A DNA stretch of 64,000 nucleotides, taken from contig JAFREE010000121.1 of NCBI GenBank assembly GCA_019400425.1, positions 1 to 64,000 on the forward strand, read 5' to 3'. Position 1 is the stretch's first letter; each line of letters begins with the position of its first letter. A model generated the notes under the pieces. That model ran no database searches and was not told where the DNA came from. It saw nothing but the letters and a program-made list of their open reading frames with translations. The stretch comes from Hymenochaete sp. R1 (taxonomy: Eukaryota > Basidiomycota > Agaricomycetes > Hymenochaetales > Hymenochaetaceae). Shown one piece after another: positions 9,404 through 63,923 of this stretch. Made by a program: the position numbers and the translations under genes.

Positions 9404-10350
9404 ACCAAACCGCTGACGGTCGAAACACGTCTACTAGTCCTCGATAGAAGCAGCTCACTACACTTAAAAACTCTCGATTGCATGGTAAGATTGCCATACG
9501 CTCTGAGCAACCTGTCGCGCATGGAGTGTTACCCGATATCCCCAGGAGTCAGTGTCGTCTACACTCGAAGCGAGGTTGTCGTCGCTATCAAACTTTATTG
9601 TTTTTTCTTGTGCGAAAAAATACCGCGGATTGAGGCGTTGTACGTCTATTCTTTCTTATTGTGCTTAACGATTTCTGACGACCTCTTACTCGTAAAGCAA
9701 TGAGAAAGAGATATGCGTGTGGCCCCAATGGAATTGTCCAAACGTCCTCTCCTCTTTCGGGCTCTCGACATCGCTGCAGGCCTCGAGTAGTCGCATTATG
9801 ACACCACGATTCATTCGGACCTTTGATCCGTAAGACAATTTCTTTCACGCCGTGATAAGTTTTGGTAATTTTGACAGCGAATACAGTCCCCTCAACGGAT
9901 GAAAGGGCCTTGATCTGAGTCTCCGGGACTGCTCGCCATCAAAATCGTTGGCAAAGATTCCCGCAACAACGATGGCGACGGGCAACTATCTCGCCCTGAA
10001 CTTATCGACTACGACGTCCCCGAAAGGCATTCCATGGAAATCGATGTCTGGGACCTCAGTATGACAGTTTATGTAGGACAACGGCGTTTTATCGATTTTG
10101 TTATATGGTACTTTCAAGTAATGTACCGTCCAGAAACACAGTCTTTACCTTACCTACGAGCGACCACATCGAAATACGACAGACTCATGCTTACGTAGCT
10201 ATCTGAGACGGTAAACTTTCGAATTCCCCGCCAACTCAAACGACGGTAACAGTGTTCGCTTCAAAGCTCATATCTAAGGCTTCCGTGAATGTTGGTGGAC
10301 AAGAAAGCCATTGGAACCACCTTTTATGGTCCAAATGCATGCGGCATTAG
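9404..10350 (+). pseudogene. Relic of a TKL-like kinase of the local family
   Basis: Scattered matches keep the order of the intact local kinases. Seen: KPLTVETRLLVLDRSS near 9405 (N-terminal signature); VVVAIK near 9580 (beta-3 lysine strand); NEKEICVWPQWNCPNVL near 9705 (start of exon 2); a decayed ERALI..SGTAR near 9900 (DFG region); LSRPELIDYDVPERHS near 9990 (APE region); DVWDLSMTVYV near 10050; and ERPHRNT plus FEFPANSND near 10165-10230 (C-lobe). Stops, frameshifts and lost segments throughout rule out function. Intron-sized gaps at the family positions suggest a DNA-level duplicate, not a retrocopy. Confidence 0.75.
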
Positions 10351-11721
10351 GTCAATCGCGACCCCAAAGAATGTCGAGCGAGTTCCAATCCACAGGCGCT
10401 TTTCAGAAAACACCGGCTCCCTCAACGTAGTCAACGGATGGCCTATTGCCGTTTATCTTGGAATTGGTCAGAGTTGATTCCGATCCTTTAATGAAGGGTA
10501 TATCGAAGCATCAAGACGGGTTTGATACCCAACTGCAACCATTCAACGAGTATAACCGGATGAAAGGTCAAGACTGAAATGGGTTGGTCGGAGATGGGGG
10601 CAACGCGAAGAAGAGAATCGCTAGGATGCTGTTCGTGTTTTTCCAGTGTCAGCATTTACGTCTTTTTAACCAATTATATGCTGGCAGACTAAAAATCTCT
10701 CTTCTATTCGCTCTATCCTCTATGTAGGCAATGCATCCTTCTCATCTAACGGAATGCCTTACCCACATCTCACATTTTAGTTCCAACATATCGGTATCGA
10801 GAGGACGACTTCGGATGTCATGAACTCAGCCAGCGTTCTTTGCAGAATAGCTGCAGTAGCGCACTCGACGTCTTCAACTTTGGTATTCCTGTCTTTCCAT
10901 CACACGAGTTTGATCTAAACGACTACGAAACCTCTTTCACTCATCCTTTAAAGTTTTTATCGTAAACGAAAGGGTCATTCGAATGTTAAGTCAGGGCACA
11001 CCTTTAGCACCTCAAGGGCATCAATCCCCACGAGCCCACACTAACAATGCTTCCATCCTGTCCTCTTCCGAGTAAGGTCTATCGTCGAACGACATAGCGT
11101 CACTTGCGCTTTGCTCCAGACCGTGCAGCGATCGAGTATGACGTTTCATTGTTTTCTGCAATTGTGGAGACCCCTGCCTACGACATGAACGGGGGGAAGT
11201 GTGGTGCTGTAAGCTTGGAAGCCATTGGAATTATCGGACAGGAAAGCTCGCCCCTAGAGAGTTCCATGCCTCATACATGCATATTTCGCGTCTCCACCAA
11301 TCATATCTATAAACGGACAGGTAAAGACGTACAGGAACATCATTTCTTTGAACTTCGCTCAGGTCGGAGTTCTGCCACGAATACTCGCTGCACCATCACG
11401 GATCTCGATAACACCGACGGACACGCGCAGAGTTGGAGCGACGGCAAGGCTCTGTCCTTTATCGGCCTTGAAGACTATAAATACTCCCATGTTCTTGCGT
11501 TTTGCATTATCCTCAATCCTCTCATCAGACATCGGTGAGCCTCCGCACTCGCTCAAATTGCCCTGGTCTTCACTCACCCACAAATCAATAGCATATAGTG
11601 TCCCCGAAGAACGTTCGCAAGTCACACAGATTAGACACCCATCGCTACCGAGTTAACGGTGAGTAAACCTCGCTCTTGCGTCATTCTTAAAATTTGTGCT
11701 CACCTTCGTCGTCCTCAAGCA
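10351..11721. other. Intergenic; upstream of the decarboxylase gene
   Basis: No supportable gene. A 144-codon open frame at 11104-11538 has no recognisable motif. A likely 5' UTR intron of the next gene runs from a GTGAGT donor near 11659 to an AG at 11718-11719, just before the chosen ATG. Confidence 0.4.
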
Positions 11722-13032
11722 ATGCCATACTCTCCAAAGAGCGCGAGCGTCAAGAAGCTGGTCGCCTATTTCACTGAGAACCCGAAGTTCTATGATGACT
11801 TCAAAGCTGCCTTTTACATCGCCCATTCCACGGGACTGAGCGACTTCACTACGAACAACGTTGGCAACGTCGATGAATACATCCAGTTCATGGATGAGTT
11901 CGTGTACTGGGTTCCCACCGAGAACGTCAAGGGAGACAACGTCTACATTCACATCTGTCTTTTCTACTTCATTCTCGAGCAGAATCCTGTCCGCAAGTAC
12001 CAAAGCCCCATTGACCCGAGTTCCAAGAGTCCATGGCGCTGGCTCTCGCAGTGGCTGATCGACTACGCGAAGGAGATGGGGACGTGGATGGACACCCCTC
12101 AATCTATTACGCCTGCGAGTGTTGATTCGTTCAGAAAAGCTGAGAATTACCGCATTGGCGACTACATTGAACCTTCTGGTGGATGGAAGACGTTCAACGA
12201 ATTCTTCGCCCGTCACATCAAACCGGAGTTACGGCCCATCGCAAGTCCCGACGATGCGACAGTCATTGTCAGCCCCGCTGACTGCAAATTCGACGGATCT
12301 TGGCCTGTGAGCAGCCCAGGCGCGGCCGTCGAGTTCGAGGTCAAAGGCGTTCCCTGGACCATCAGTCAACTTCTCGAGGACAATACGTCCAACGTGAAGT
12401 ATGGCGAACTTTTTGCCGGCGGTGTCTTCACGCACTCTTTCCTCAGCCCCACCGACTACCATCGCCAGCACGCACCTGTGTCTGGGCGTATCATAGAGGC
12501 AAAGGTTATCCCTGGCCTATGCTACCTTGAGGTCGTTCTCAAGGAGGGCCAGGAACCCTCGGGCCATCGTTCTGGCAATCGTTCTGGCACTCCCATGCCT
12601 CGCCTTGGTATGCATCGTAGCATCCGCCAGAAGAAAGAGGACAGGACGATCATACCCTTCAACGCAGCTGTGAACGCCAGCTCCTTCGCCGCCTCTACCG
12701 ACTCCGGCGTCGACGCGTCCGCCCCCGACTTGGACGCTCCCGACTCTCCTGGATACCAATTCCTCCAAGCGCGAGGCCTCATCCTCATCGAGAATGATAC
12801 GCTAGGAAAGGTCGCTGTGCTTCCTATTGGCATGGCGCAGGTCTCGTCCGTCGTTCTCAGCGTGGCGAAAGGTGATGTGGTGAAGAAAGGACAGGAGATC
12901 TCTTGTTTCCACCTGGGCGGTTCGGACATTATCATGGTGTTCATGAAGGACGCGAATGTCGAGTTCCTCCAGAAGGAACAAGAGCACTACAATTTCGGTA
13001 CTCACGTCGCTACTGCCCATCCCAAGAAGTAA
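11722..13032 (+). CDS. Phosphatidylserine-decarboxylase-family enzyme, soluble PsiD-like type
   Basis: Single-exon 436-aa protein. The family makes its own pyruvoyl cofactor by self-cleavage at a Ser and decarboxylates phosphatidylserine or, in fungal branches such as PsiD, an aromatic amino acid. Seen: FNEFFARHIKPELRP (the FNxFF block), SPADCKFDGSWP, YHRQHAPVSGRI near residue 255 and, near the C-terminus, HLGGSDIIMVF with the GGS self-cleavage motif. There is no mitochondrial presequence or membrane anchor, and HLGGS resembles the HFGGS of PsiD more than the LGST of mitochondrial enzymes. The N-terminal domain before FNxFF is also PsiD-like in layout. Start at 11722 (MPYSPKSA) directly follows a plausible splice acceptor; an in-frame upstream extension to 11659 lies in the presumed intron. 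The substrate cannot be told from sequence. Confidence 0.85.
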   Translation: MPYSPKSASVKKLVAYFTENPKFYDDFKAAFYIAHSTGLSDFTTNNVGNVDEYIQFMDEFVYWVPTENVKGDNVYIHICLFYFILEQNPVRKYQSPIDPSSKSPWRWLSQWLIDYAKEMGTWMDTPQSITPASVDSFRKAENYRIGDYIEPSGGWKTFNEFFARHIKPELRPIASPDDATVIVSPADCKFDGSWPVSSPGAAVEFEVKGVPWTISQLLEDNTSNVKYGELFAGGVFTHSFLSPTDYHRQHAPVSGRIIEAKVIPGLCYLEVVLKEGQEPSGHRSGNRSGTPMPRLGMHRSIRQKKEDRTIIPFNAAVNASSFAASTDSGVDASAPDLDAPDSPGYQFLQARGLILIENDTLGKVAVLPIGMAQVSSVVLSVAKGDVVKKGQEISCFHLGGSDIIMVFMKDANVEFLQKEQEHYNFGTHVATAHPKK

Positions 13033-15634: not shown

Positions 15635-15942
15635 ATGGCGGACACTAATGTAATCACCCATGTAGATGGTCACGTATCGGATACTAGCACTAACAAGGAA
15701 CAAGAGCAAACTCAGCAAAGCGCGTCGGACTTCGATGGAGCCTCGCCATTCAAGTTGTTGACCATTCAGAGACCATTGCCTGTAAACAACAAAAGCATCC
15801 TATGGGAACTGCAGAAGCTTGACTTACAAGAAAAAATTGTGTAGACGTCCCACCACAGTGTAGGTCTAGGAGCGTATTCGGACGTCTTCAAAGGAGAGTG
15901 CCATCCGTCGCTTGGGGGAAACGTGGTCGTCGCTATGATATA
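15635..15942 (+). pseudogene. Truncated kinase first exon
   Basis: Starts MADTNVITHVDGH and is a close copy of the first exon of the kinase at 19829. It includes about 100 bp of nearly identical upstream sequence (15538-15634 against 19731-19828). An in-frame TAG at 15842-15844 interrupts it just before GLGAYSDVFKGEC. Similarity ends after VVVAM, where the intact copy continues with KRLRF. No later kinase exons follow. This is a recent partial duplicate. Confidence 0.85.
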
Positions 15943-16414: not shown

Positions 16415-19086
16415 ATGTCAGCCTCCATCGTCTCTCACTTCAATGCTGTCGCACAGCCTTGGGAGGAAAGCGACCCGCATCCCTCAACTTCCTCCACCGC
16501 CTCCGTTAAGAGACCGCTAACTACCCAGAAACCTTTGCCAGTTCTCGACAGGAATATACTATCTCACCTTCAAAGGCTCGATTTGTACGGCCGGATAATT
16601 GAACGTTCCGAGCATGCTATTGGTCATGGTGCCTTCTCTGAAGTTTTTAAGGGAAAATGCTGTCTCGAGTCCCAAGGCTATGTCACTGTCGCCATTAAGC
16701 GTCTTCGTTTACATGTGAACACCGTAGAGTGTAGCAACGTATGTATGATCTCTTGCGTAATTTGTCTTTTCTAACTCTTTCTTCTTCTTCGTAGCTATTC
16801 GAGAAGGAAGTCCTTGTCTGGTCTCGATTAGGCCACCCGAACATCCTACCGCTGCTTGGATATGCTTTCTGCGGTGATACGGGCTATCCGCAACTCGTTT
16901 CCGAATGGATGGAAAACGGCACAGCATGGGCTTTCGTACAAAAAAGGCGAGACATTAGCTTCTCAGAAATTCTGGATTTGGTGCAATCATCTCGTATTTA
17001 TCCTCGTTATCTGTCTCTATCTCATGTGTATCCATTTCCCAGATTCAAGATATCGCCGCTGGCCTTGGATACCTTCATGCTAATGACACAATTCATTCGG
17101 ATTTGAAATCTGTGAGTGAATACCTTTTATTGCGACTTTTCGGACTTAATGATTTAATTAAGGAGAATGTAGTGATTTCATCTGAAGGAAGGGCTTTGAT
17201 TTGCGACTTTGGAAGCGCCCGTGTCCTCCTTTCGTCCATGTCTTTGGTGAAGATGACCTCAACAACAAAAGGGACAGTGAACTACCTCGCACCTGAACTT
17301 ATCGATTACAACGTCCCCGCCAAACACTCCAAAGAAACTGATATCTGGTCGTTCGGCATGATAATTTACGTATGAATGCTCTCCCTGCATATGTTGCCGC
17401 TCATACCCACTGATACATGAGCCAGGAACTTACCACCAAAGAAAGACCATATCGAAATATGGCAGAAGCTCAAACATACATGGCTATCTTAGCCGGGAGA
17501 CTTCCTGAGTTTCCCACCACATCAAACAACAGTCACTTACAAATGCGGCTTCAAGAGCTCTGTAGACGTTGTTGGGCTCGGGAGCCGTCGAACCGACCTT
17601 CGATGCAGGAAGCCAAGCTGACGTTGGATCAGCTACATTCTGAGAGTACAACAGGTACGATTTGGAGGCAGCTATCGTCTTCAAGTCCGCAAGATGTGAA
17701 CTCAAATCTCAGATTCGTCAGATTTCAACTTTAGTGAGATTGATCTAGAAATTGAGCCTTCAATGGGCCTGAAATTCACGGGCCAGCTGCCTCAGCAAGG
17801 AACCTCAAAGAGTTTGCCTGTTATCCCCGAACAGCCGATACCCGGTAGCGTTTCCGACATCCAAGCGCAAACAAGTCGCTCCAACCTATCAGATACTCGC
17901 GATTTTCGAATGCTCATAGCGGAAAACATCGCTCCAGAGAAATCATCAATTGAGGTCATGTCGGACGTATATTGCCAGCCTGGCAGTAGTATGTCCCCTT
18001 TGGCATCACCTCAACCTGAGGCTCAATCCTTGGTAACGCATCATGTCAACAGGTCCGGCCAACCTGGTCCATGGCTTTCCTCTGAACGTGATTTCTTCGC
18101 ACGAGCATCTTTCCGTGTCCACAGGCGGAAAATCGTTGTCGTCGGGGATGGCGCCTGCGGAAAGGTTTGTTTCAGCATACTCCTGGTTACCGCGTGCTCA
18201 AGGTATTATCTTTGGTCGTCCTTACATCTGCCGGTAAATACAGAGTATGTGCGCTCGTAATTTTGAGATGAATATCCGTTTCTGACAATTTTCGGAAATT
18301 GCAGCTAGTCTTCTTATGACTTTCTCCGAGGGTGTTTTTTCAGAAGTTCGTACTTGCTCTCTTATAAGCGCATCTTGACTTAGAATATGTATATTGTAGG
18401 GCCATCCTCCTACTGTATACGATACGCACGTTAAAGAAGTTGAGGTAGATGGAAGACATCTCGAGCTTCAATTATGGGATACCTCTGGTCATGAGAACTA
18501 CGACCGCCTCCGCCCTCTTTGCTATGACAATACGAACGTAATCATTATATGCTTCAGTATTGAATTTTATACTTTGTTTTCCAACGTTCAAGAGAAGGTA
18601 CAGTGATTCTTTCAATCCTCCGCCTCATGAATGCCGCTCGATACGCTTGATATCTGCTTTTTGATAGATGTTTTACTGACCATCCATAATGGTTTTCTTT
18701 CTCTACCAGTGGGTTCCAGAGATCTCTCACTTTCTGGATGGAGTCCGCATTATACTGGTCGGTTGTAAAAAGGACATCAGGTATGAAATAGGAATAAATG
18801 AGAAAATGTCCGCAATTAACGACCGTCTTGTGACTCCGGAGGAGGTGTGTCATTTAGCTCATTTGAACTTGGTCTTTTACGTAGCTGACCAGGAGCATTA
18901 TAACATGGACTATACATCATCCAGGGCTTTAAACTTGCGCAAGAAATTCGGGCGCAGCGTTATCTTGAGTGTTCGGCGAAGACTGGGGAAGGTCTTTCGG
19001 AGCTGTTTGAGCATGCTGCGCGCTTGTCACTTCTACCGCCAAAGCGGAGGAAATTGTCGAGGTTAGCGAAATGTATCATTATATAA
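16415..19086 (+). CDS. TKL-like kinase fused to a Rho-type GTPase with CaaX box
   Basis: Predicted 667-aa protein. Exons: 16415-16738, 16795-16980, 17043-17111, 17163-17369, 17426-17654, 17713-18164, 18244 (one nucleotide), 18305-18345, 18400-18597, 18710-18844, 18925-19086. Kinase: glycine loop GHGAFSEVFKG, VAIK lysine, catalytic loop IHSDLKSEN (non-RD), DFG, APE, C-lobe RCW and NRPSM. A linker of about 120 residues leads to a complete Rho domain: P-loop GDGACGKT, switch I PTVYDTH, WDTSGHENYDRLRP (the catalytic Gln position is His), CKKD, ECSAKTGEG. The C-terminus is basic and ends KCIII, a CaaX prenylation signal. I infer a membrane-tethered kinase with a GTPase output. The one-nucleotide exon is the only way found to join P-loop Lys to Thr in frame. 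No transcript evidence is available. Confidence 0.85.
18244..18244 (+). other. Predicted one-nucleotide exon (A)
   Basis: Flanked by an AG acceptor (18242-18243) and a GTATGT donor (18245-18250). Intron lengths are 79 and 60 nt. It supplies the first base of the invariant P-loop Thr codon (A+CT). Skipping it puts the whole GTPase domain out of frame. The same arrangement occurs at 28812 in a paralogue. Confidence 0.65.
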
Positions 19087-21925: not shown

Positions 21926-23407
21926 AACAACGATGAGAGCGAAGCGCGACATTTGGTTGATTTTAGGCGATCGAGCCAGGGCGTCAGACGAAGAGACCCA
22001 GATACAGAAAGTCGGCCTGAATGATGATATACACTAGCGAAGGGATAACAGGAAGTCGGGAACAGATAATGTAATAAACCCGCAAAATGAGCGTGAAGCG
22101 GATGTAGACTATCGGCATTCCTCCGTGTACCTTGAAAAGCAGCAGACATGCCCGCACTTCACAGGTTCAAATGCAAACAGTCACTTTCGTTATCAAACTC
22201 CGTCAACTCTGTCACTGACGCAACATCTATGCGCCAGACTGTAATCCAGATAAGAAACCAAAGCACATAGCACAAACTTCTGTTACATACTATCCGAGGT
22301 TAGATCCCACTTTCTTCTACTTCACCCCCTTTCTCCTGCCACTACAGTCCGGCATTGCAAACGATCACCCTCATCCAGACGTATTCCCGGACTATGCGCA
22401 CTGGGCTGAAGTAACCGAGAAAATAACCTCACGTATTCGCTTGCATTGAAGGAATGAAATTTGTAGATGACGACAGACCGACTTGACCAGGTTCGTGAGC
22501 CAAGGGACAAACCTAACCAGCATAGGGCGCATTTGAGCGAGAATGAGAAGAACCTAACGTAGCAAGTTCCATTGCCGTGGTTCATTGGTAGTGTCGCTCG
22601 ACAAATATATGGCCGTTGGTGATGCTTTGAGTGGAGACATGTGAACGTGTTTGGCATGAGCAACACGGGTGTGCTACTTATCGTTGCTCTTCTGAAATAC
22701 GAAAGAAGCACCCGACGGACGTAGGAACGGGGTAAGCACATTTTATTTGATAGATGAAGTGATCTCGTCGACACACTTTTCAGAGCTAAGCAAGCATATA
22801 ACCTCCTCTCCTGTGTCTCATCCTCTGCCCACGTAACATTCGACGTCAAATTCCTGGACGTCGCCTATGTCCGCCCGTTGGATTAAACCCTGCCAGTCGT
22901 TCCACTGTCATGTACACTTGCGTTGCATGTCGTCCTCGATTTTTTGACCTTGGGGGAATTTGCCTTTGGTGTCTTACATGGGAATTGCTTCAGAGTGCTC
23001 TGCTGTCGGTTCATGGCGTATCGTCTGGCCTCGGCTTATGGACTCGCACGCAAGAACTGAAAGTGCGTCTCGCTCGGCCAACAAGCGCTCGTGGTGCGCA
23101 GACTGCCTTGAGATAAGTGTTCATGCCCGCAATCCTCTGCTGAGCGAGCGTGTAGCGCTCGGTCATAGCGCTCGAACACGCAGCGACGGTGGTGGTGTGA
23201 AGAGAGGACGATCAGCAGGGCTGCAAGACAGTGCAAGTTGCAACAGACGCGCCGCGTAGATCCGTTGCTTATCTCTTTTTAACTTATTTCATTCATGAGT
23301 CATACTAAGGTCGGCGTTGTGCTGTTCGCACCTCACTCACCACTGTTACTGTCTTCGAAAGAAAGGTGACGACTCTAGTACTGTCTCGTATCCAGTTCCA
23401 CTCCGTT
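21926..23407. other. No gene recognised
   Basis: Nearly 1.5 kb between two kinases. Open frames on both strands (for example 22322-22849 minus, 175 codons) show no recognisable motif or splice pattern. The region may hold regulatory sequence for the gene starting at 23408. Confidence 0.4.
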
Positions 23408-50986: not shown

Positions 50987-53556
50987 ATGGCCTCCTTCCT
51001 CACTGCCTCTCTCGCGGTCCTCTTTTCCCTCCCTTTCACCCTCGCAGGCCTCACCCAATATTGGTGGAACATCACTTACGTCGACGGAGTGAACCCAGAC
51101 GGACTTTTTCCTCGGCGCGCCATCGGCGTCAACGACTCATGGCCTCCTCTCCCCATTGACGTGCCCGCGAACGACACCCTCCTCCTTCACGCGACCAACT
51201 CGTTGGATAAACCAATGACGGTGCACCACCATGGTATTGATCGTTTAAAATTTACAATATTTTTAATCTCCGTGTTTACTTTCTGCTCTCTTCGCTCAGG
51301 GATGTTCTTCAATAATGCAAGTTGGTATGACGGGGCAATTCAGTTGAGCCAATGGTAAATCGTCTTCAGCACCTGTCGTGTCTCTGGAAGAAATTTTGAC
51401 TGTGATTTCTTCAGCGGAATACCGCCCGGGGAGACATTTACGTATGTCGTGCCAATCAACGAGTCCGGACAGTGGGGTACCTATTGGGCACATGCGCATG
51501 CGAACGGTGGTTTGACAGGTCCGTTTTTGTCGTTTTCCTTTCGAGTAACGAAGTTCGACCTTAAATCGCTGGTTTGAAGATGGTCTGCGCGCGCCACTTG
51601 TCATTCATCCGGAGGAAGAGGTTCATGCCAGCGATTATGATGAAGGTGGGTGTCTCTATTTGGATCGTGATTCACAGTGTGCGCTGGTCAAAATTGATTC
51701 GGCCTTTATAGAATACACGATTGTTATGAGTGATTGGTATCACGACGAACATGACGTCCTCATCGACTCTTTCATCTCCATGTCGAACCCTGGAGGCGCT
51801 GAGCCCGTTCCTCGTACGCATTTCTGTTTTTACACCAGTATTCCGCATTAACATTACCACGCTTAGAATCACCGCTCCTCTACTTTGCCCAAAATGGATC
51901 TTACCTTACTGGCTTCAATGGCAACGCTTCCCTTCCCTTCTCCCCATCCAAGACGTACCGCCTTCGACTCATCAACGCCGGCTCCTTCGCTATGTTCTTT
52001 TTCTGGATTGACGGGCACTCCATGCGTATAATCGAGGTCGATGGAACGGATACGCAAGCTATGGACGTCGACATGCTCAGCTTGACGGTTGCGCAGAGGT
52101 ACTCGATTCTCGTCACGGCGCTGAACGAGAGCGAGGTAACGAATGGGCAAATGAACTTTGCTATACACGCAAATATGGATACGGACATGTTTGATACCGT
52201 GCCAGATGACCTAAACCCTAGTGAGTCGATCGCTTTCTTTTTCTTCTTTGCGACTGGGTTTTTAAAGATGAAATGCAGATGCTACCGCCATTCTCTCGTA
52301 CAATTCCTCATATACCCTTTCCTCGCCCGAGACCGTCGATGCGTATGCAGATACAAATGATACTGCGCTCGTGCCCATCCCTGTACTTGCGCAGTATCCT
52401 TCACCCGACCGCACTATTGAATTACTTGTTTCGTTCGACACGATGACGGATGGGACGAATCGGGCTATGTTCAATGAGTTCGTTCCCTTCTTGCATTTCA
52501 TATTGGACTTCCTCTCACATGGTCGTTACTACTGTGCCGTTTTGCAGCATCACGTACAACGCGCCTGTCGTACCTACGATTTTCAGTGCCGTTTCTCTTG
52601 ATAATGTAACGGGCCAAGGGGGTGCGGCAGACGTTGAGGGAGCGTACGGGCCTTGGAACTATGTGCTTGAGCTTAATGGGACAGTGGACCTAGTAGTTCA
52701 GAATGGAGATGCCGGTAAACATCCTTTGTAAGTTCTTTCTTTTGTCGTAATGTCGTCGAGGGACTAAAAAAAATTCGCGCATAAACGACAACAGCCATCT
52801 TCACGGCCACAAGTTCCAAATCGTCAACCGCGCAAGCGACTATACTTCGTCCGACCCATCTCTCAACCCCGCACTCATCGAGGGTCAAGAGAATCCCGTT
52901 CGGAGAGATACGGTTCAGATCGAGAGCGGCGGAAGCGCGACGTTGAGGTTCCTGGCTGATAACCCAGGGGCTTGGTTTTTGCATTGTACGTTCCCTTCAT
53001 CTATACTATGAGAATTGATTCCAACGTCACCATTCATTCGCTTTGCAGGTCATATCGGTACGGAATTAAGCTATCTCCTTAATCAATGGCGGCAAGCTAA
53101 TATTTTTTGTACTTTCATTTAGAATGGCATCTCGAAGCAGGCCTCGCTATTACCCTCATCACCTCCCCTTCCTCAATGGTTGCCGCCGCCGACCCAACGA
53201 CAGGAACCCATCCAATTCCTTCCTCGATGTATTCCCAATGCGCCGCCCTCTCCGTCCCTACAGCAGGCAACGCCGCCGGCCTATTCTCCACCACTGACCT
53301 TACAGGTCTCACCCTTGGACCGTTTGTGCAGAACAACGGATGGCATGGGAAGGGCATTGGGGCGATGGTTGGGTGTGTGCTGAGCGCCATTGTGGGTGTG
53401 CTCGGGGTCGTTTGGTACGCGGTTCTTGGGGAAAGGTTGAGCGAGGGAGAGGTAGAGGCGATGGCGTGGAAGAAGGTGGAGGAGAAGGAGAGGAGGCGGA
53501 GGGGTGTGCTAGGAATGTTTGGGATTGGGAAGGGTGGTGCGGAGAAGAGGGAGTGA
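50987..53556 (+). CDS. FET3: Multicopper ferroxidase FET3
   Basis: Predicted 646-aa protein from eleven exons (50987-51233, 51300-51354, 51415-51518, 51580-51645, 51712-51813, 51867-52220, 52279-52477, 52548-52727, 52795-52985, 53049-53057, 53123-53556). It oxidises Fe2+ to Fe3+ at the cell surface and hands it to FTR1. Seen: a signal peptide ending near TLAGLT; copper motifs HHHG, WAHAHANGGLTDG, HPFHLHGH and HCHIEWHLEAG, including the type 1 copper Cys-His pair; cupredoxin domains in the usual order; and a C-terminal membrane helix (GAMVGCVLSAIVGVLGVVWY) with a short basic cytosolic tail. Exon 10 is only 9 nt and encodes the core of HCHIEW, so it must be spliced for activity. The second copper site reads WAHAH where many family members have W-[YV]-H-S-H. 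Confidence 0.94.
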
Positions 53557-53994
53557 GGGGTTGAGCCGGATTGATAATCGAAGAAAAGTGCTTCATTGAA
53601 TATCGTTTTCTTTTTTCCTGGCTATTTGCAGTTGTGTTTCCCTCTTGCTTCAAGGATCACTATCAAATAAGTAATTTTGATATTAACGAATCTGAAACGT
53701 CAAAGGTGTACATGTGTATGGATGAAAAGATAAAGTGTCCTTCAGTGCCAGATGCGTGCAAGCTATCACGCCGCTCGTCGAACTTCACTTCGATCTTCTC
53801 TTTTTTTTGTTCTGCGCTGCGTGCGTTCGGGTTAGTAGTCGGAGTACACAAATGAATTAGAAAAACGGTAAGGAGAAAGGCAAGGAAAGACGAGATGCAA
53901 TTGACCTGATCAAGTCTGGCGTCAAAAGTCGAACAGGCACCTTTCGAGTCTAACACTGTCTGTGAAGCCTTTAAATTCGGATATATAAACCAGC
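53557..53994. other. 3' region of FET3
   Basis: No gene seen; presumed 3' UTR and spacer before a minus-strand kinase relic. Confidence 0.4.
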
Positions 53995-54370
53995 ATCGTT
54001 ATTTGACGACTTAGGGAACATCTAAAGCTTCCCGTTCATGATTGTCATGTCTACTTGAGCTTCTATGAGATTTCGGTACGGCTTTTGCTAGTGCTCAATT
54101 CCTAAACCATAGGTTAGACGTTGGTAGAGGAGAAAGAGGATGAACAAAAAAGAAGTGCACATAGACTGCTAGTGTCACCACCTCGAAAGACCAGACACCG
54201 TTACTTTTTATACGGTTTGCAGTGACATTGTGGTTGACGAGCTCGGGAACAAGGCAACGTGTCCTTATTCCGTCGACGCCATCTTTGCAATAGAATCTGT
54301 TGAGAAATACATCGTGCAGCGCCGAAGTCGTAAATTAATGATCTTCCCTCAGGAGAACTGGCAATGTTAT
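53995..54370 (-). pseudogene. Kinase C-lobe relic
   Basis: On the minus strand: NIASSPEGRSLIYDFGAAR (exon 4 start with the DFG region), a decayed LVPELVNHN (APE region), NGVWSFE, an intron-like gap, and near 54050 ELSTS with a frameshifted PYRNLIEAQVDMTIMNGKL (exon 5). Stops and frameshifts rule out function. Its first bases overlap the end of the upstream kinase-receiver gene. Confidence 0.75.
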
Positions 54371-56541
54371 CCTGAAAATGATACCCACTGACCCGCAGCA
54401 CCCAGCACTCCGGTATCGTGCAAAGGGAAGAAGTCATCCACAAAACCGGGAGCTTGCATTGTTTCCTGGGTCCGCCTTGTTTGCGTAAGGTGCTTCTAGT
54501 TATGCATAAATGAGTCAAAACGGTAGTATGCATAGCGAAGCAAGAACTGACATCGACCATGCTTTCCAGACTTTCTTTTGTGAAAGGCTTCCTGAGAGTG
54601 TCATTCATCCCGTGCTCTTTATGGACCGCAACCTCATTAGGACTCGGAACAGTACTCGTCGTCGCAATAATAGGAGTATATAAATTAGTCTGCCGGATTT
54701 GTGATGTTGCCGCGAACCCGTCAAGGTTTGGCATAACTATATCCTAGTAAAGGCAGCGTTCGTAGGAAAAGTTACCAACGGAGTTTGATTACTTACCATC
54801 AACACCAGGTCATATTCTTCTGATCTCATCTTTTTAACTGCCACTTCTCCATCAACAGCGATGCCAACGCTATAGCCAAGTGTCTGTAAAAACTTAGTCG
54901 CTTGCTGTCGATTGACCGGATCGTCGTCCACAACTAAAATACTAGGCGAGACGTCCCAGCCGGACTCAAAATTACCGGTCGATGGAGGACCCTCAGACAC
55001 TGTCCCCGACAGCCAGCCGAAATCGTAGGGGCTTTGTTGGATTGTATCTTCCGTACCATCATTCCCTCGGTCTATGATAGATGTAAAAGAAGTATTAGGA
55101 TAAAGTCTTGTTCCTGTGCCACTGCCAGTACTTGATCCCTCCTGCGATAGAATATCATCCCAATCCCAAGATTGACTCAACGCGCTCAGGCTGTCTTTCC
55201 GCTGTCTTCGCGGAGTTTGGGTATTCCATGGATCCTGCTGTCCTGGTGAGCTTTTGGACTAATTTTTGTTTGCTTTGCCCACCTTGTAAACCGTCCGGGG
55301 AGATGTGCTGCCAGCCTGGAGTAAATTTTGAAGCCGAAAATGGACACCCTCTGCATTGAGTCGGGAATTAGGTTCCAGGTTCCAACAACCCTCGCATATG
55401 CTCTGTAGTTCCAAAGTATAGTTGCCCATATCGTCCCATAATTGCGATGGGAAGACTGGTAATCTCCCTCTTATAATTGCCATGTATGCTTGAATTTCCG
55501 TCAAACCCTCAAATGGCCTACGTCTCATGCTCACTTCCTATTGAATAAATGCAATACGATGAACAATCAAAGAAACGAGAGAAACGGTGAGAAAACTCAC
55601 AAAGATTGTCATGCCGAGTGCCCAGACATCCGAGTTCTTAGAATGTTTAGACGGATTTATATCATCGATGAGCTCTGGAGCAAGGTAACTTGTTGTCCCC
55701 TTCACGGTTGACGTAATCTTTGCAAGGGAATGCGTTGGCGTATACATTCGCGCTGACCCAAAATCACAGATCATGGCCCTTTTCTCCGGCGAGATAACGA
55801 CGTTGTCCTGAAAAGTAAGTTCACCATAGGAACTCTCATGCGTAAAACAGCATTTCTCACCGACTTGAGGTCGGAATGGACAATATTATTTTCGTGGAGG
55901 TAAGCAAGCCCTCCGGCGACGTCGCAAATCTACTGAGTGATGAATAACGTTATTTTGACGTTCATGTTTATGGCAAAGACGGACCAATGCTAGAACTTCA
56001 GACGAACGGATTGTGGAGTTCTCTTTGACGTAGTTCCAAATGGTTCCAAGTTCCATCCATTCAGAGACAAGTAGAGGATAGCCTGTGTCAGAACAGAAGG
56101 TATATCCCAAGAGCGGAAGGATGTTTGGATGGACGAGCTTGGACCAGACGTAAATTTCTTTCTCAAATAGCTGGAAAGAGGGGATGGCAGATTAGCAATA
56201 CCTGAAACGAAAATGAAAGGAGCGCTGCTCACAAGTTTGTACTCAAGTGCTTCCGGCGAAAACCGTAGGCGCTTGATGGCGACTCTGACATGGCGACGAG
56301 TGCGAAGACGACATGTCCCCTTGAAGACGTCAGAATATCCACCAAAGCTCACAGCATGAAGAGACCGCTCTGTTATCATAGAATGCAAATCAAATTCCTG
56401 TAGTCTTCGCAAAATTTCTCCATCATCTACTGGTAAAGGTTTCGGGGATGTCAATGGGCGTTCCGAGGAGCTGATAATGGTTGGCTCTTCAAGTTGTTCC
56501 CGTTCCAAGAGTAGGTGCGTCGACTTGCGAGGATCAGCCAT
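54367..56541 (-). CDS. TKL-like kinase fused to a response-regulator receiver domain
   Basis: Predicted 595-aa protein from eight exons (56541-56233, 56170-55985, 55929-55861, 55807-55601, 55537-55283, 55237-54797, 54743-54552, 54495-54367). Kinase motifs: SFGGYSDVFKG, VAIKRLRF, VHSDLKSDN, CDFGSAR, APELID. A Ser/Gly-rich linker leads to a full receiver domain: SILVVDDDPVNRQQATKFLQ (acidic pocket), GIAVDGEVAV, DLVLM joined to DIVMPNLDG (phospho-acceptor Asp), PIIATTS (conserved Thr) and LRKPFTKESL (conserved Lys). Receivers normally take phosphate from histidine kinases or phosphotransfer proteins, so this protein could link a His-Asp relay to Ser/Thr phosphorylation. The intron joining kinase to receiver is short (45 nt, or 48 at a tandem acceptor). 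Without it there is one in-frame TAG. No DNA-binding output domain is present. Confidence 0.82.
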
Positions 56542-56874: not shown

Positions 56875-57936
56875 AAGCCTCCGACCTCTGGTCGAAAACC
56901 GAAGATCTCTGGGAGGGCATCTTCTCCCTCGTCGCAGCCCTCATCATCCTCGCCATGGGTCTCACCATGCTCAAGCTGGACCGTGCACACGCGAAATGGC
57001 GCGTTAAGCTCGCGAGGGCATTCGAAAAGTCAGAAAGGAGGGCGAAGGAAGGACGAGCGGGAAGATGGGTCCTGTTCCTGCTACCGTTCATTACTGTATT
57101 GCGTGAGGGAATGGAGGTCAGTCATTGTTCCTTCATCATCTAAGATGTGACCACTCACAACAGTATCCTTCAGGCTGTCGTCTTCGTCGGAGGCGTTTCC
57201 CTTGGCCAATCCGCCCGTTCCATCCCTCTCGCTGCTATAACAGGCATCGCAGCTGGCCTCCTCGCCGGCTTCCTCATTTACCTTTTTGCTTCTCGTGCAG
57301 CCCTCGCTCTCTTCCTCGTCGTCATCACATCCTTCGTCCTTTTCATCGGTGCAGGTCTCTTCTCCAAAGCAGTTGGATCGTTTGAATCGTACGTGTTTGT
57401 GAGGCTTGTCGGGGCTGAAGTGGATGATACAGGCGGGGACGGACCAGGAAACTTTGACGTGCGGAGTAAGTAAAGCATTCCCGCCTTTCTACAGAAGTTG
57501 ACGGACGCGTTGTGATGAAAGACGTCGTGTGGCACCTTGACTGCTGCAATCCGGAGAATAACCTTGACGGTCAAGGATGGGAGATCTTTGGCGCCATTTT
57601 TGGTTGGACAAACACTGCGACGAGTAAGTGCCATCTTCTAATCTATTGAAATAGGTCCACTCACCAAGCATCATATCAACCTTCCCAGTTGGCACAGTCC
57701 TGTCCTACGTCCTCTACTGGCTCCTCGCCGTGTCCATCCTCGTCTACATGAAAGTCTCTGAAGGGCGCTCAACGTTCTTCGGGTACAAGACAGAGGCGTA
57801 TAAGCGGCACCAGGAGGTCATCCTTCGGAGTCATCAAGAGAATGTAGATAGATCGAATGCGTCAGACGCGAAGCATTCGGAAGAGAATGGAACGAGAGTC
57901 GATCAAGGCGAGGTTGAGGAGACGTCAAACGCATGA
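56875..57936 (+). pseudogene. FTR1 3' fragment, truncated by the duplication breakpoint
   Basis: Begins inside exon 2 of the FTR1 copy at SDLWSKTEDLWEGIFSLVAA and runs through LREGME, VVFVGGVSLGQSARS, DVVWHLDCCNPENN and the final helix to the same C-terminus. The first iron motif (RETLE), the first two membrane segments, the start codon and the promoter are absent. The frame is open upstream only to a TTG at 56796 through unrelated sequence. The retained part stays open, so decay is recent. Confidence 0.85.
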
Positions 57937-58434
57937 AATCTTGCGAATGCGCGAAGGTAATATCGAGAAGATACCAAGAAGTATCGTAAATAGTCTTCAA
58001 TGATAAAAGTCCTTTGAAAAAGAAACCTTTGGTTGTGATGGTCTGAAAAACGCGTACAACAGAGGGGTGGAGGTACACGCCCGAGGCCCTGCTTCCTGCT
58101 TGTTTGCTAATGTATTCCCACGCTCACGCTCTAGGCTCAGATCAATACCATTCCAACCTACAAGACTTGGTTCTTCCTGCCCGCGCAATACCAGAGTTCT
58201 GATGCAACGCGAGGAAGTACGTGAGCCCTTCATATACATCCATTGTCGATGGCGAGCTATATTCGTCGCAAAGAACTCCTTGAGCTCAAAGCTATTCCAT
58301 GTTCCCAGTGATTCATTCTCTCAGTCTCTCATTTCGCGCTCGCGTCCATCCATACTACAATATTGTGCTTCACATCCTGCGAACCTCGCAGAAAATACCG
58401 AAGAATATAGACAGTAAAGAGTAGAAAGAAGGAA
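57937..58434. other. Convergent 3' region within right arm
   Basis: Counterpart of 48492-48952; no gene seen. Confidence 0.4.
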
Positions 58435-60262
58435 TTAATCATATTCATCGTAATACCCAGCCGAACCCGTTTCCCATTCATTATTATCATACCCATCATC
58501 ACCAGCCTCGTAGTATAAGTCACCTTGGTCATCCGAAAGATAGGCACCGCCATCAATCTCTCTATTTGCGTCACCGAGAACATCTTGATAGATGTCTTCG
58601 GTATGATCGTCATAGGTATCGTCGTATGCGTATGGAGCTTCAAGTTCTCCTTCTTCCAAATCACCGATCTCCTGCCTGTCATTCGACATCTTGTCTTCTT
58701 CGACTTCTTCACCCTCGTCCAAACCAACCTCTTCACCGACATTATCCTGCTCATAATCGATTGATAATTCACCCTGATCCGACGCAATTCCACCATCGAC
58801 ACTCTCACGATCACTCTCAGCCATTCTTTCTTCTTCATCTGACACCACAACGACGCTCTTCCCGTCATAGCTGCCAGTTGAGTCGCTGTCGTTGCTAGAA
58901 TACGAAGGAGGTCCGTAATACGAGCCTATAAATATAGGTTTTTCATTTTGGAGCATCACGCCTCGGCTCTCCTATGGAAAGGAATAAAGAGATGAATTTC
59001 CAGAATTGAAGACTCAAGTTTATTCCACTCACTTTGGTATCAGAATGGGCAGACACATCTTCATCAGCCTGTGACAATAGTTTGAGTCGAGCATGGATGT
59101 CCTCTGCATGGATCCGATCGCTAGCTTTCAAGTGCCAACAACTCTTGCATATGCTTTGCAATTCTGGATATAAATTGCAAGCATCGTTCGCTGATTGCGG
59201 GGGAAAACTCGGTAATAATCCCTTCGCAATGGCAGTGTACGTTTGAAATTCTGTCGTGCCTTCAAACGGTCTTCGTCTCGTACTCATTTCCTATAACCGT
59301 TATGCGATTCATCGTAGCGAAGTAAAGGATTGAGGTGTAAAGAACGCACGTAGATTGTCATTCCGAACGCCCAGATGTCCGTTTCCTTAGAATGATGAGA
59401 CGGGTCTGATGTTTCAAGAAGCTCTGGGGCAAGATGACGTAGAGTTCCTTTAACTGTTGAGGTGATCCTGCCAAGCGACTCAGTGGGAAGATACATTCGT
59501 GCAGTACCAAAGTCACAAAGCATTGCGTGGCGTTCAGGAGTAATAACGACATTGTCCTGGTGAGATACAGTTCATTGTGCGAGTACATACATTATATTTA
59601 ATTTTGTTTCTCACCGATTTGAGATCAGAATGAATGGCGCCTTTCTTGTGAAGGTACTGCAGACCAGCCACATCGCATATCTATTGGTTGGTAAAAGGAT
59701 TGTTGTGTATGACAACCGATTTTATGACAGTGTGAACGAACCAGAGGCAGGATATCCGAGAATAAAAGTTCAGTATGATCGTTGATATAATTCCAGGCAG
59801 TGCCAAAATCCATCCATGCTGAAACAAGTAAAGGGTAACCGGTATCTCCGCAAAAAGAATAGCCGAGGAGTGGGAGGATGTTGGGATGGTTAAGCTTGGA
59901 CCACATGTAGATCTCCTTCTCAAATATCTGAATAGAATATTTAGTCAATTTCTTGCTTGAAGTGCAAGATGGCTCACATATTTGTACTCGACTGCATCCG
60001 GTCGGAATCGTAAACGCTTGATGGCAATGGTGACCTGTTGATGTGAGTGAAAGCGACACTTTCCTTTGAAAACGTCAGAATAAGCTCCTAATCCCATAGC
60101 ATGTTGAGATCGCTCTGTGATCATGCCGTATAGATCATACTCTTGCAGTTTCCGTAATATATCTCTATCGCCCACTGGTAATGATTTCTGGGAGGTCAAC
60201 GGTCGTGCAAGGGAACTGACGATGATATCAGAGAAGCCTTGATCTTGTTCCAAAAGCGCCAT
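58435..60262 (-). CDS. TKL-like kinase with acidic tail, right-arm intact copy
   Basis: Predicted 512-aa protein from six exons (60262-59978, 59927-59742, 59680-59615, 59556-59350, 59290-59033, 58971-58435). Motifs: ARPLTSQKSLPVGDRDIL, GLGAYSDVFKG, IAIKRLRF, IHSDLKSDN, CDFGTARMYLPTESL, APELLE. The last exon encodes about 175 residues very rich in Asp and Glu with many Tyr near the end (DDQGDLYYEAGDDGYDNNE), probably disordered. No folded tail domain is seen, unlike the paralogues. Exon 3 is 66 nt, one codon shorter than the family norm of 69. This copy keeps Arg (CGA) where the left copy has a stop. Start MALLEQDQG is the first ATG in frame. Confidence 0.85.
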
Positions 60263-61960
60263 CGTTGGTGATCGAGAGTCAAATATCAATGCTGAAACTG
60301 TTAGACGAGCTGAATGCAATTAATGATGAGCGTAGACTCGGAGGATAGAGGCGTAGAAACACGATGGAGGCGCATGGTGCTTAGGCAACATCATTTCGTT
60401 CGCTGATGGCCGTAAGAAGCTCGGACGTTTTGGGTGGGTCCGCAACACGTAGCACAGCGGTTCATACATTGGGACGTGTGCAGAATAGTGAGCAGCAGTA
60501 CGAAAAATCCAGTTTGCATCTTTTGAATGGCGTACTAGGTGGAAGAGACTCATCAAAGTCAGTTTGTCAGTCAGTCGTGGTCCCAATGGCTCTGTCGATC
60601 ACATTCACCTAAATGATCTTCACTGCAAATTTCATTGGACGCGAAGTCGACGCACGCACTCAGGCTGTTGGCTCATTGACTACGTCTGTGTTCTATTCCT
60701 TCTTGTCGTAGACGGTCATCGACGCCTAAGAGACTAGCATTACGCTATGGAAGAGGCAACGTCACTGCACATCTTTGTCTTTGGTTTCTTGAAACTCGTT
60801 TCTCTCATTGGTGAAGCCTAAAGGCTGGACGACAACGAGACCATTGGACCTTCTTCGGAGATAATTTCCTGTCCACGAGCTGCCTGACTGGTTGTAAGGA
60901 ACTTCTTTTCTCGGTATTGTGTTGTTTTAGGGGGGTGAGCGTCGCAGAGGCTGGTAGTCAAAGAGTCGGATTTGAGTCGCTGCCTTGAATGGGTAAGAGT
61001 TCAAGAATACTGCATCAAATTCCGAGACTGAGTTTGTTTTAGTGGTCGATATAGAGGTACGAAACACCGCTACTAGCTCACTCGTCGCAAAATCTCCAAT
61101 GAAAAGCACTCGAGGCAACAAAAGAATGCGTTTCTAAATTTTGTGAGGGTTCTCCGGGTGATTGACTGACCTACGGGAGTAGCTTCAATTCTCCTGGTTA
61201 ACGTTGACTATTGGATGCAAAAGTTCGTGGAAAAGACATTGACCTGATGAGGGGAAACTTCGATGGATGGAATCATCAATATCGAATCGGGCATGACGAC
61301 TCTCTCGCAAGCTTGGAATACGATGACAGAACCTGTCAATTCTTACGATTCAGAAGGAATGGGGGAAAGAGGGATGCGACGACATTGGAACTCGACTAGT
61401 TGCGTGCACTTTCACATATATAACAAAATAAATGAATTGCTGGTTGAAAGACAGTTTGCGATCTCTGTGTGAATATTGATCTTTTTCTTTGTGAAGTGGC
61501 TTTCGAAACGCGGTAACGTGATTTACAAATGACGCGACGCGACACGGACACGTCTTGGACCGAAGAACTCGGACCTTAATTTTCAAATGCTCTGAGTAAA
61601 ACCAGTAAGCTAAAGAAACTTATTGATATGAAAAGGCTCAAGATATTGTTGAAGAACTACTCAACTCACTGGAGAATGCCTAAGGTAAAGTTTCTCGAAA
61701 AGGATGCGCGAGGCAGGCATTAGCCGACACTCCGCCCGCGTCGATCACTCTGCTCATAAAAAGCCGACATTGTGTCTTTCCCTTACTTCCCATCGTTCTT
61801 TACCTCTGCCCACGGTCTCATAGCCAGAAGAAGCTCTTACTTCTGAAAGCTTGGACTGCTTAGCTTGGGCATCGACTTCTTTCTACTGCTCTCTCACTTC
61901 GACGTCTTCATCTGTCGAGCCACCGTCGCATCCACGACATCGACATCGACGACGACGACA
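60263..61960. other. Intergenic within right arm
   Basis: Counterpart of 44887-46662. No gene called. A short open stretch near 60930-61120 (minus) matches the left arm but lacks a known motif. Confidence 0.35.
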
Positions 61961-62725
61961 ATGCCCTTTCCGTTTCTCAAATCACACCTCACATCTCCCT
62001 ACTCAGACATCATTGACAACCAAACTCTCCAAGGCTTTCCACGAAACGGCAAGAATGATCCTGCGGCCAGAGCGTGGCTCCTCGCGATCCTGAATGGCCA
62101 CAAAGACTCATTCAGCGAGACCACGCTGTCACCGATGGATACTTACTCGACCCACATTACGGACTCTCCCGCTGGCTCCCCGTCGGATTTCGTACCTTCA
62201 GAGGATGATGAGGTCTATGACCCTGCTGACGATAGCGTCATTCCTCCTACTTTATTCCTCACGCTGGACGACGAGCCCAGTACCGTGATAGCACTTCCAG
62301 CGACAGACCTCTCCTTGTCGTCCTTCCGTGGCATCCTCCGCACCTATACTGCAGTCTGTGCTGACGTCGATTCGAGTGAGCCACCGAGCTGGATTGTCGA
62401 GTACAGTATCCTCCACGAGATCTGGGGAGTGACTTACTCGGAAAGGTTCGGTGACGACGGAGAGTCATCGCTGCACACTGAGCGTGTCATGCATATGGGA
62501 GAGTATGGTGAACTGCGAAAGATAATGGAGAACGTTATAGGCAAACCAGTGGGGAAATTTTACACGAAGGTGGAGATCTATGAAAAAGTAGGGGGATTAT
62601 TGGATACGGAATATTCAGCGGAGAGGCCATTCGACCCATTCCACTTGCTCCCGGACGAGGTTGATCCATGGAGCGATTCAATGGAAGAGGCAATTGACAA
62701 GGACTTGTTGGAGAACTATCTTTGA
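61961..62725 (+). CDS. Conserved hypothetical protein, right-arm copy
   Basis: Intronless 254-aa frame, the inverted counterpart of 44173-44886. Shared blocks: LQGFPRNGKNDPAARAWLLA, EVYDPADDSV, LSSFRGILRTYT, IVEYSILHEIWG, TERVMHMGEYGEL, DEVDPWSDSMEEAIDKDL. The start used (MPFPFLKSH) lies upstream of the left copy's because the two N-termini differ by indels. No known domain recognised. Confidence 0.7.
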   Translation: MPFPFLKSHLTSPYSDIIDNQTLQGFPRNGKNDPAARAWLLAILNGHKDSFSETTLSPMDTYSTHITDSPAGSPSDFVPSEDDEVYDPADDSVIPPTLFLTLDDEPSTVIALPATDLSLSSFRGILRTYTAVCADVDSSEPPSWIVEYSILHEIWGVTYSERFGDDGESSLHTERVMHMGEYGELRKIMENVIGKPVGKFYTKVEIYEKVGGLLDTEYSAERPFDPFHLLPDEVDPWSDSMEEAIDKDLLENYL

Positions 62726-63561
62726 ATGTTTTGAACGACATCATTAAGAAGTTGCCATATAATGTAGTTGTTTCTTGCTTCAATCTGTACTGTAGTTGCT
62801 TTGTTCCTCCACGACCACAGACACGACATTCACGACCCGTTCCTTTTCTTTGTCACCCCCCAATGTACGAATTAAATAGTGATGTTGATATATACAGTAA
62901 AAAGTTGATATTGTTTTAACTTCTGACTGATGCCTCAGTAATGACGAGAAATATTAATGGGTTACGGAGACCTGTGAGTCACGCTCATCCGCTCGGACGT
63001 ATATTCTGTTCAACATTTATGAGGTCTAACTTCCGCACGACCCCTCTCCTTTCTTTCTATTATTGATACAACGTACACAATCACATTGAGTGGCTCGTTC
63101 TGTGAAGTAGTTGTCTTCTGTTTTCTTAAAGGACAAGGTAGTGATGTGGCCGCATCTGTACCTTATCAAGTGCTCAATCAGAGGAAAATGGCATTCTTGG
63201 TGCAATGTCGATAATGTGGCGAATTATAAATAATAATCGACCTTCTCCCTGGTATATAGAAACAATATGGGTAACCCCTTCCCTGGAATCAACGTGTCGA
63301 CTGCAAATCACTCAGATAATCGCCGTTCAATGTGAGTGTATCCCAGTAATTCGAGCTTTGAGAACGTTACATCAAGCGTATGCCTACCCATTACTCGACT
63401 TGGATTGGATCATGAATCTGTCGATGGCGAAGAGCGATGGCTTCAATGATCGAGCTAGTCCTCGTTCAATTGACCTCTCCGTCCTTTGCAGTTCCGAGTC
63501 TGATTCGTTTCCTACAGCCAAGACAGCACTGTCTAAATGGTCACGAATACATTGTCCGCTT
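62726..63561. other. Outer end of right arm and flank
   Basis: AT-rich 3' region of the hypothetical gene to the arm end at 63273, then unique sequence downstream of the GTPase gene. Plus-strand open frames at 63205-63709 are antisense to or flank that gene and were not called. Confidence 0.4.
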
Positions 63562-63923
63562 TCATACGATAATACAGCACGAACAAATTTTCTTTTGCGT
63601 CTCTAATGTATATCGAGCCGCATGTTCGAATACTTCGCGGATACCTTCACCCGAGCTCGCCGAACATTCAAGATACTCTTTTGCTCGAAGTTTTTTCGCG
63701 ACGTCGTGACCCTATGAAAGTTTGAAGGCATAATAGGTCAGTTCAATTTAGGTAGGATAATATTTGAGACTTAAAGTAGCAGACATGCCTGTTTCGCTGA
63801 GGTTCGTGGTTTAGGCGCTTTAGTACACTCATCAATGGACGCGCGTCTTTTTCTAACATCATTCTTGCATCCAATAAGCAAGGTAGGAGCCTGTGGACAA
63901 AAATGTGCCACCTCAGTTGCCCA
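63562..63923 (-). CDS. Rho-type GTPase domain, C-terminal part (gene continues off the right edge)
   Basis: Two exons are visible: 63923-63789 (135 nt) and 63711-63562. They read WATEVAHFCPQAPTLLIGCK, then NDVRKRR, and after the intron GHDVAKKLRAKEYLECSASS and GEGIREVFEHAARYTLE. These are the G4 (CKND) and G5 (CSA) blocks of a Rho domain. The first exon has the same length as its counterpart in the kinase-Rho gene at 16415. The protein ends KKICSCCIIV: a CaaX box (CIIV) with a neighbouring cysteine. The intron between them starts GC (GCATGT) and ends TAG. Upstream, 63924-64000 looks like intron. Whether a kinase precedes it, or it is a free-standing Rho protein, cannot be seen. Confidence 0.82.

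Follow-up and report, generated by a model that had tools for sequence, protein, structure and literature searches.

A kinase module joined to captured domains at a Hymenochaete locus: a possible fungal counterpart of plant kinase fusion proteins

Introduction

The authors of the studies of wheat Sr43 and Lr9 propose that plant kinase fusion proteins pair a single functional kinase with another domain, often dead or unrelated, that serves as an integrated decoy, and that many such fusions arose independently (PMC10260397, PMC10260399). The kinase fusion proteins (Sr43, Lr9/WTK6-vWA, Pm4, and Yr36) and the tandem kinase proteins (Yr15, Sr62, and Pm24) resemble a fungal family, described here, in that a kinase is combined with diverse domains, VWA among them, or with a pseudokinase (PMC10260397, PMC10260399). 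We analysed this family at a locus of Hymenochaete sp. R1 (GenBank assembly GCA_019400425.1, 27.8 Mb) at which one kinase module is followed by many different C-terminal domains, hereafter tails. The window, by which we mean the whole stretch of DNA under study, is the first 64 kb of the 77.9 kb contig JAFREE010000121.1 (C26).

In fungi, the available text of a review of immunity discusses NOD-like receptors (NLRs) and names kinases among their effector domains (PMC10197012). The expanded tyrosine-kinase-like (TKL) and FslK kinases of Agaricomycetes are also fungal lineage-specific kinase expansions, and differ from the present family in that the text consulted describes expansion, not a single module that has taken up a variety of host domains (PMC2838846, PMC3937382). 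In the literature searched, no fungal kinase family with integrated domains was found reported.

Results

A constant kinase module

The window holds eight near-intact copies of one kinase module, seven of them stop-free, and spliced protein-to-DNA alignment with a purpose-written aligner gives each of them five exons. These are K2 (16415-17638, +; PF07714 7.9e-48, PF00069 1.2e-47), K3 (19880-21057, +), K4 (23946-25115, +), K5 (27122-28373, +), K6 (32635-33850, +), K8 (46675-47839, +; one in-frame stop), K9 (55343-56481, -), and K10 (59084-60259, -), whereas K11 lies beyond the window (C26:66617-65492, -) with a tail that reaches into it. All eight share four core introns, in phase 0 and at matching positions, and an exon 2 of 186 nt; exon 3 measures 69 nt and exon 4 207 nt in seven copies each. 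Genome-wide, among 23 modelled copies, exon 2 is 186 nt long in 21, exon 3 is 69 nt in 22, and exon 4 is 207 or 210 nt in 21. The catalytic loop reads HSD (non-RD) in every window module, and the catalytic Lys, HSD, and DFG are retained in 23/23 modelled kinases. By profile match and by its Lys, HxD, and DFG motifs, the module is predicted to be a TKL kinase (PF07714/PF00069). A preliminary description of the window, which had pointed to near-intact kinase copies with shared exon lengths and a non-RD loop, is borne out in this respect.

Dozens of family copies occur beyond the window in the same genome. A protein search of this genome gave at least 164 exon-level matches on C26 and many other contigs, part of which are other kinases, and the 23 modelled copies leave out those on contigs C51, C134, C214, C90, and C301 and further sites on C312 and C335. 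On C51 (25017-25322, -; L010) there is a kinase exon 1 with 94% identity to that of K2, and no further exon was found within the 3.3 kb examined. The nearest relatives of the kinases are in Hymenochaetales (Coniferiporia, Phellinidium, Sanghuangporus, Fomitiporia, Phellopilus, Pyrrhoderma, and Schizopora).

Diverse tails behind the kinase

Across the modules of this genome, the tails are of Rho GTPase, Num1/Mcp5 PH, Skn7-like receiver, casein kinase 1 (CK1), FYRN/FYRC, TPR, weak Zn2Cys6, and acidic types. K2 is followed by a Rho tail (18126-19086, +; Ras 7.5e-42 in Pfam) with a CAAX-like CIII end, Gln61 replaced by His, and introns as in the Rho1 gene of contig C33, and K5 by another (28692-29686, +; Ras 5.2e-12 on one exon) with Ser in place of Gln61 and no CAAX. 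The third Rho tail touching the window is that of K11, whose C-terminal exons (63565-64000, -) were placed by alignment to Rho1. K6 carries an Mcp5 PH tail (34239-35630, +; Mcp5_PH 1.8e-37) that is 62% identical to the PH domain of a resident gene and is continued by a donor-like C-terminus (E 1e-4). K9 carries a receiver tail with its phospho-acceptor site present (54549-54943, -; Response_reg 6.8e-26) and an intron as in the Skn7-like gene of contig C168. Behind K8 and K10 are acidic tails with putative junctions (47952-48488, +, from open reading frame [ORF] reading, and 58438-58971, -, respectively), which are 87% identical, and K4 has no recognised tail. An ORF after K3 (21479-21772, +) with a Zn2Cys6-like cluster is a candidate tail; its spacing fits, and its Zn_clus score of 17.4 bits (E 0.0048) lies under the Pfam cut-off of 21. 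The unrelated tails listed in the preliminary description are therefore upheld for the Rho, Mcp5 PH, receiver, and acidic types, with the Zn2Cys6 assignment falling below threshold.

Beyond the window, K12 has a PH tail (Mcp5_PH 6.7e-42 in Pfam; 79% identity to the resident PH), and K11 and K13 have Rho tails by alignment to Rho1. The C11 copy ends in a casein kinase 1 (E 2.3e-94 against a solved CK1), C106a in FYRN and FYRC (1e-17 and 1.4e-16 in Pfam), and C81c and C81e in TPR (6e-16 and 1.4e-9 in Pfam), and TPR in C287 and C335 and DUF3421 in C312 were assigned by eye. The DUF3421-like class may be common to more than one genus, because both the C312 copy (L013 1444-2560, +) and, again by eye, Phellinidium P0019 have such a tail. 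The tails of C301 and C320 have no Pfam match; behind the kinase of each (L065 44-1552, + and L062 3852-5027, -, respectively) there is a long stretch in one frame. A further short Mcp5-PH-like match, within a 49 aa frame and 53% identical to the K6 tail, was seen on contig C31 (61404-61517, -; L049). Neither NACHT nor NB-ARC was found when 10 fusions or tail frames were scanned against Pfam, and no search for NLR or HET partners was made.

Kinase and tail as one protein

In 8 of the 15 copies with a recognisable tail (a count that excludes acidic tails and includes the by-eye TPR of C287 and C335), an intron-free open frame runs from the kinase C-lobe into at least the beginning of the tail. 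The eight are K5, K12, C11, C81c, C81e, C287, C335, and C106a, of which only K5 is within the window; here a single frame (28158-28760, +) contains both the kinase C-lobe and the Rho P-loop GDHACGK. In K2 and in K6, a single GT-AG intron (58 nt and 49 nt, respectively) links kinase and tail. Joining K9 to its receiver requires an intron of 45-48 nt, and joining K3 requires one of 49 nt, after which another stop precedes the Zn cluster. K11, K13, and C312 were counted neither as single-frame nor as single-intron fusions. To place the junctions, we relied on reading by eye and on protein alignment. A gene finder based on codon usage and splice sites was dropped as a fusion test when it overran intergenic regions into the next genes, and its output served only as an initial guide to the C11, C335, and C312 tails, that of C11 being then confirmed by alignment. 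In a relative, protein P0013 has an uninterrupted frame of 830 codons comprising a kinase and a G-alpha domain (1.1e-50) on a contig of 3,143 bases; since the genomic copies described here have four introns, we infer that this contig points to a spliced transcript.

Origin of the tails

The tails are 3' ends of genes that were captured as genomic DNA and not through mRNA, because their intron positions agree with those of resident genes. The resident Rho1 of C33, whose best solved match is a Rho1, has three phase-0 introns across the aligned stretch, and these are matched 3/3 in each of K2, K5, and K11 and 2/2 in the alignable part of K13, two of these introns, in K11 and K13, having GC donors. 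Rho1 and all four Rho tails appear to share an exon of a single base (A, flanked by AG and GT), which completes the Thr codon of the P-loop GKT; it was read from genomic sequence alone, partly by eye in K11 and K13. The sites of this exon are near 136 in L066 (C33), at 18244 and 28812 in the window, at 71210 in C26, and near 64.3 kb for K11.

The donor type of the PH tails is a resident Num1/Mcp5-like gene (3566-9050, -, with approximate ends, from ORFs; Mcp5_PH 1e-21 on the main ORF), which has orthologues in Agaricomycetes, the best being that of Fomitiporia (57%). A phase 1 intron in the PH domain is common to resident Num1, K6, and K12, and beyond the PH domain K12 retains 46% identity over 173 residues of the Num1 C-terminus. 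Likewise, the receiver intron is common to K9 and to the gene of C168, which we take to be Skn7(-like), at 59% identity. The PH tails group with Hymenochaetaceae Num1, to the exclusion of Schizopora and Rickenella (90/90, moderate support), so that the PH capture may be as old as the family; synonymous sites are almost saturated. Resident Num1 was considered as the direct parent of both PH tails and rejected, its pairing with K12 being marginally rejected in tree tests (p 0.048). The trio of resident Num1, K12, and K6 was not rejected (p 0.33), and these two results together would place the PH donor as the resident Num1 gene in the present or a near-ancestral genome.

State of the captured domains

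Gln61 is changed in 4/4 Rho tails (to His, Ser, Ser, and Leu), where the parent reads DTAGQE; presumably the residue numbers used here, 59 and 61, are the standard Rho ones. The Rho P-loop and base-binding motifs are present in the tails, and CAAX-like ends are retained by K2 and K11 and lost in K5 and K13. In the CK1 tail of C11, HRN replaces HRD and GFG replaces DFG, and both catalytic Asp residues are gone. The G-alpha tail of P0013 reads DVGLD, the canonical G-alpha motif being DVGGQ. End branches measure 0.59-0.90 for the Rho tails against 0.073 for resident Rho1 (in a poorly resolved tree) and 0.22 and 0.68 for the PH tails against 0.041 for the resident copy, 5 to 17 times the length of the resident branches. 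The tails nevertheless appear to be under constraint, because in nine PH, Rho, and receiver comparisons, at identities of 42-79% and with tail and parent branches pooled, the proportion of nonsynonymous differences (pN 0.10-0.38) is well under that of synonymous differences (pS 0.71-0.88).

Kinase tree and tail types

In a kinase tree of 29 rows, one clade (100/98) holds K2 (Rho), K12 and K6 (PH), C11 (CK1), C320, and K4, and a second (98/94) holds K11, K5, and K13 (Rho), K3 (Zn), K9 (receiver), and K8/K10 (acidic). With groups defined by tail type, yet tested once the tree had been seen, the approximately unbiased (AU) test rejected the Rho-tailed kinases as a single clade (p = 0.0002) and did not reject the PH pair (0.16), the three Rho kinases, of four, of the second clade (0.197), or the TPR group (0.14); the tail classes other than Rho might thus form single clades. 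At the sequence level there is good support for duplication accompanied by the capture of new C-terminal domains, because the tails have donor introns, fusions occupy single frames, and the Rho-tailed kinases are not one clade. The preliminary description had proposed such repeated duplication and capture; this stands, and the contrary possibility that each fused class is ancient and separate is answered for Rho only.

Kinase-pseudokinase tandems and fusions in related fungi

More distant members of the family form arrays on contigs C302 (78-124 kb; L050-L054) and C124 (1-19 kb; L055-L056), in which residue-keeping and residue-losing units are intermixed. The HxD Asp is lost in 9 of 26 distinct modules on these contigs (29 rows minus three duplicates from overlapping stretches), and 8 of these 9 adjoin another module. 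Among 14 neighbour pairs less than 900 nt apart, one of which is on C81 and does not share a frame, 10 lie in one open frame, as do 9 of the 10 pairs at most 106 nt apart. Such distant members are predicted to be kinase-pseudokinase tandems, a sister class to the fusions.

P0001-P0005 of Coniferiporia have two or three kinases per protein (by eye), and P0127, P0134, and P0137 have two kinase stretches. Fusions in relatives include VWA (P0130), WD40 (P0148 and P0151, and P0179 with a cut-off kinase), an N-terminal Zn cluster (P0134), G-alpha (P0013), and, by precomputed label, SH3 (P0169). Four Sanghuangporus species have family proteins of 1097-1191 aa (P0009, P0010, P0131, and P0132), and in P0009 the kinase is preceded by a long charged N-terminal part.

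Relics, inverted repeat, and neighbouring genes

The window also contains six kinase relics (at 9.4k, 15.7k, 23.4k, 25.3k, 39.2k, and 54.3k). Their scores, taken from the higher-scoring of two queries, are 104-312; in six crude shuffles each with one query, no score exceeded 64. K1 (9385-10355, +) has many frameshifts and stops, and exon 1 relics lie at 15704-15937 (+; with a stop) and 39200-39544 (+); all three were also aligned. N-lobe relics stand upstream (23396-23925, +) and downstream (25339-25542, +) of K4, and an exon 4-5 relic lies behind K9 (approximately 53953-54360, -; ORF reading). The extra N-lobe that the preliminary description had assigned to one gene was not confirmed, as the pieces on either side of K4 look like relics, and its tally of at least seven near-intact copies and five relics becomes eight copies, including K8 with its stop, and six relics. 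Weak minus-strand scores at 9-44 kb were rejected as relics because masked bases weaken their shuffles.

An inverted repeat of 6.5 kb with 90.5% identity between its arms (43625-50010 and 56875-63273) includes K8 in the left arm and K10 in the right, together with flanking ORFs that have no assignment. In this young pair, dN/dS is 0.20 for the kinase, 0.36 for the acidic tail, and 0.46 for exon 5. Ordinary neighbours in the window are genes for a phosphatidylserine decarboxylase (11635-13029, +), a GH43 protein (30469-31714, +), a DUF6534 protein (36766-37410, -), and a multicopper oxidase (50903-52360, +).

Discussion

The best explanation of these data is a family of intracellular TKL-type kinases, predicted from sequence, whose catalytic residues are intact and many of which carry the 3' ends of genes of the same genome, each such protein thereby bearing a copy of a different host domain. 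Because Gln61 of Rho and the catalytic Asp residues of CK1 are lost while the kinase residues stay in 23/23 copies, it would seem that output comes from the kinase and that the tail is a bait or sensor, and the term 'output domains', which the preliminary description applied to the tails, is less supported. The outside factor might be a parasite effector, a toxin, a virus, or a non-self product that attacks the parent protein of which the tail is a copy; contact with the tail would release or cluster the active kinase, which would in turn signal defence or cell death. We consider a bait or sensor role, the best-supported of the roles weighed here over targeting, churn, and true output, to have an even chance of being right, and we infer an immune role for the family with the same balanced confidence. 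More tentative, and in our estimate somewhat short of evenly balanced, is the proposal that kinase-based intracellular receptors for immunity or allorecognition arose in fungi independently of those of plants, with a constant active kinase, changing and often catalytically dead copies of hub proteins (Rho1, CK1, Skn7, Num1, and G-alpha) as integrated decoys, and a kinase-pseudokinase sister class.

Several observations weigh against a bait or sensor role. The K9 receiver retains its acceptor Asp, the phosphorylation site; the PH, FYR, and TPR tails are not enzymes whose activity could be lost and fit targeting equally; the CAAX-like ends of the K2 and K11 tails suggest that these may be anchored to a membrane; and a Rho domain without Gln61 can be an output locked in its GTP-bound state. 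Parsimony requires 12 tail changes, and 12 labels need no fewer than 11, so that only the Rho class appears to show movement beyond one origin each; this count gives no strong support for tail swapping, whereas the AU test on Rho does support it. Rho may even have been captured once, since a single clade of the Rho tails themselves is not rejected (p 0.46, in a poorly resolved Rho tree of 7 rows). The change of Ala59 to Ser, common to all four Rho tails, leans towards a single capture, and one early Rho capture with replacement in other copies and several captures are equally possible.

The retained features just named, together with the PH tails that are still 62 and 79% identical to the resident domain, would also be expected if the tails were addresses that send a common kinase to the membrane (Rho CAAX), the cortex (Num1 PH), chromatin (FYR and Zn cluster), or complexes (TPR and WD40) in a rapid rewiring of ordinary signalling. 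We regard this as rather unlikely: the CK1 tail has lost both catalytic Asp residues and two of the four Rho tails their CAAX, a whole Rho or G-alpha fold is odd for a mere address, and pseudokinase tandems are not addresses. Alternatively, tandem and inverted duplication could have joined kinase 5' halves to nearby 3' ends in a neutral churn that leaves most fusions functionless and decaying, as the six relics, the stop in K8, the inverted repeat, and the higher dN/dS of the K8/K10 acidic tails and exon 5 than of their kinases would suggest. Such churn is improbable given the low pN relative to pS in the nine comparisons, the kinase motifs intact throughout the modelled set, and the recurrence of fusions among related fungi.

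That the tails are true outputs, with the kinase regulating an attached GTPase, receiver, or transcription factor, would suit the complete receiver of K9 and the P-loop and base-binding motifs of the Rho tails; it is highly improbable in view of the residues lost from Rho and CK1 and of a kinase that is constant while tails vary. Finally, separate neighbouring genes could have been wrongly joined, and the putative junctions of K11, K13, and C312, the intron needed by K9, and the further stop before the Zn cluster of K3 leave some room for this. For 10 of the 15 copies it is largely refuted by the eight single-frame fusions and by the single introns of K2 and K6, and the uninterrupted kinase-G-alpha frame of a relative also speaks against it; as a general account it can be almost entirely discounted.

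If the decoy proposal is correct, it would represent a striking convergence with plants and extend fungal immunity by a class other than NLRs, and the tails could be read as an inventory of the proteins that fungal parasites attack, and so of candidate host targets of viruses, bacteria, and rival fungi. The locus is informative here, as it shows the donor type, capture at the DNA level, and several acceptor genes side by side.

The preliminary description had likened the locus to the integrated domains of plant immune receptors. The logic of that comparison holds, and the closest counterpart is the plant kinase fusion proteins rather than NLRs. NLRs with integrated domains resemble the fungal family in the logic of a host-derived bait, but NACHT and NB-ARC are absent from the 10 fungal fusions or tail frames scanned, and the constant part here is a kinase. 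Of the plan of plant kinase fusions, the fungal family has an intact kinase and an unrelated domain in one frame (8/15), kinase-pseudokinase tandems, and several independent fusion or swap events, as seen in its many tail classes. It differs in belonging to another kinase lineage and kingdom, in having dozens of copies per genome, and in its partners, which are core signalling proteins; resistance function is proven for the plant proteins, whereas the fungal family is known from sequence alone. As judged by search ranking, descent from plant kinase lineages was not indicated: the best protein matches are in Hymenochaetales and other Agaricomycetes, and the plant matches listed are far weaker. 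Because this ranking gives a fungal TKL family, the family would work like, but by descent is not, a plant kinase fusion protein, and fungi have apparently reached the same plan independently of plants.

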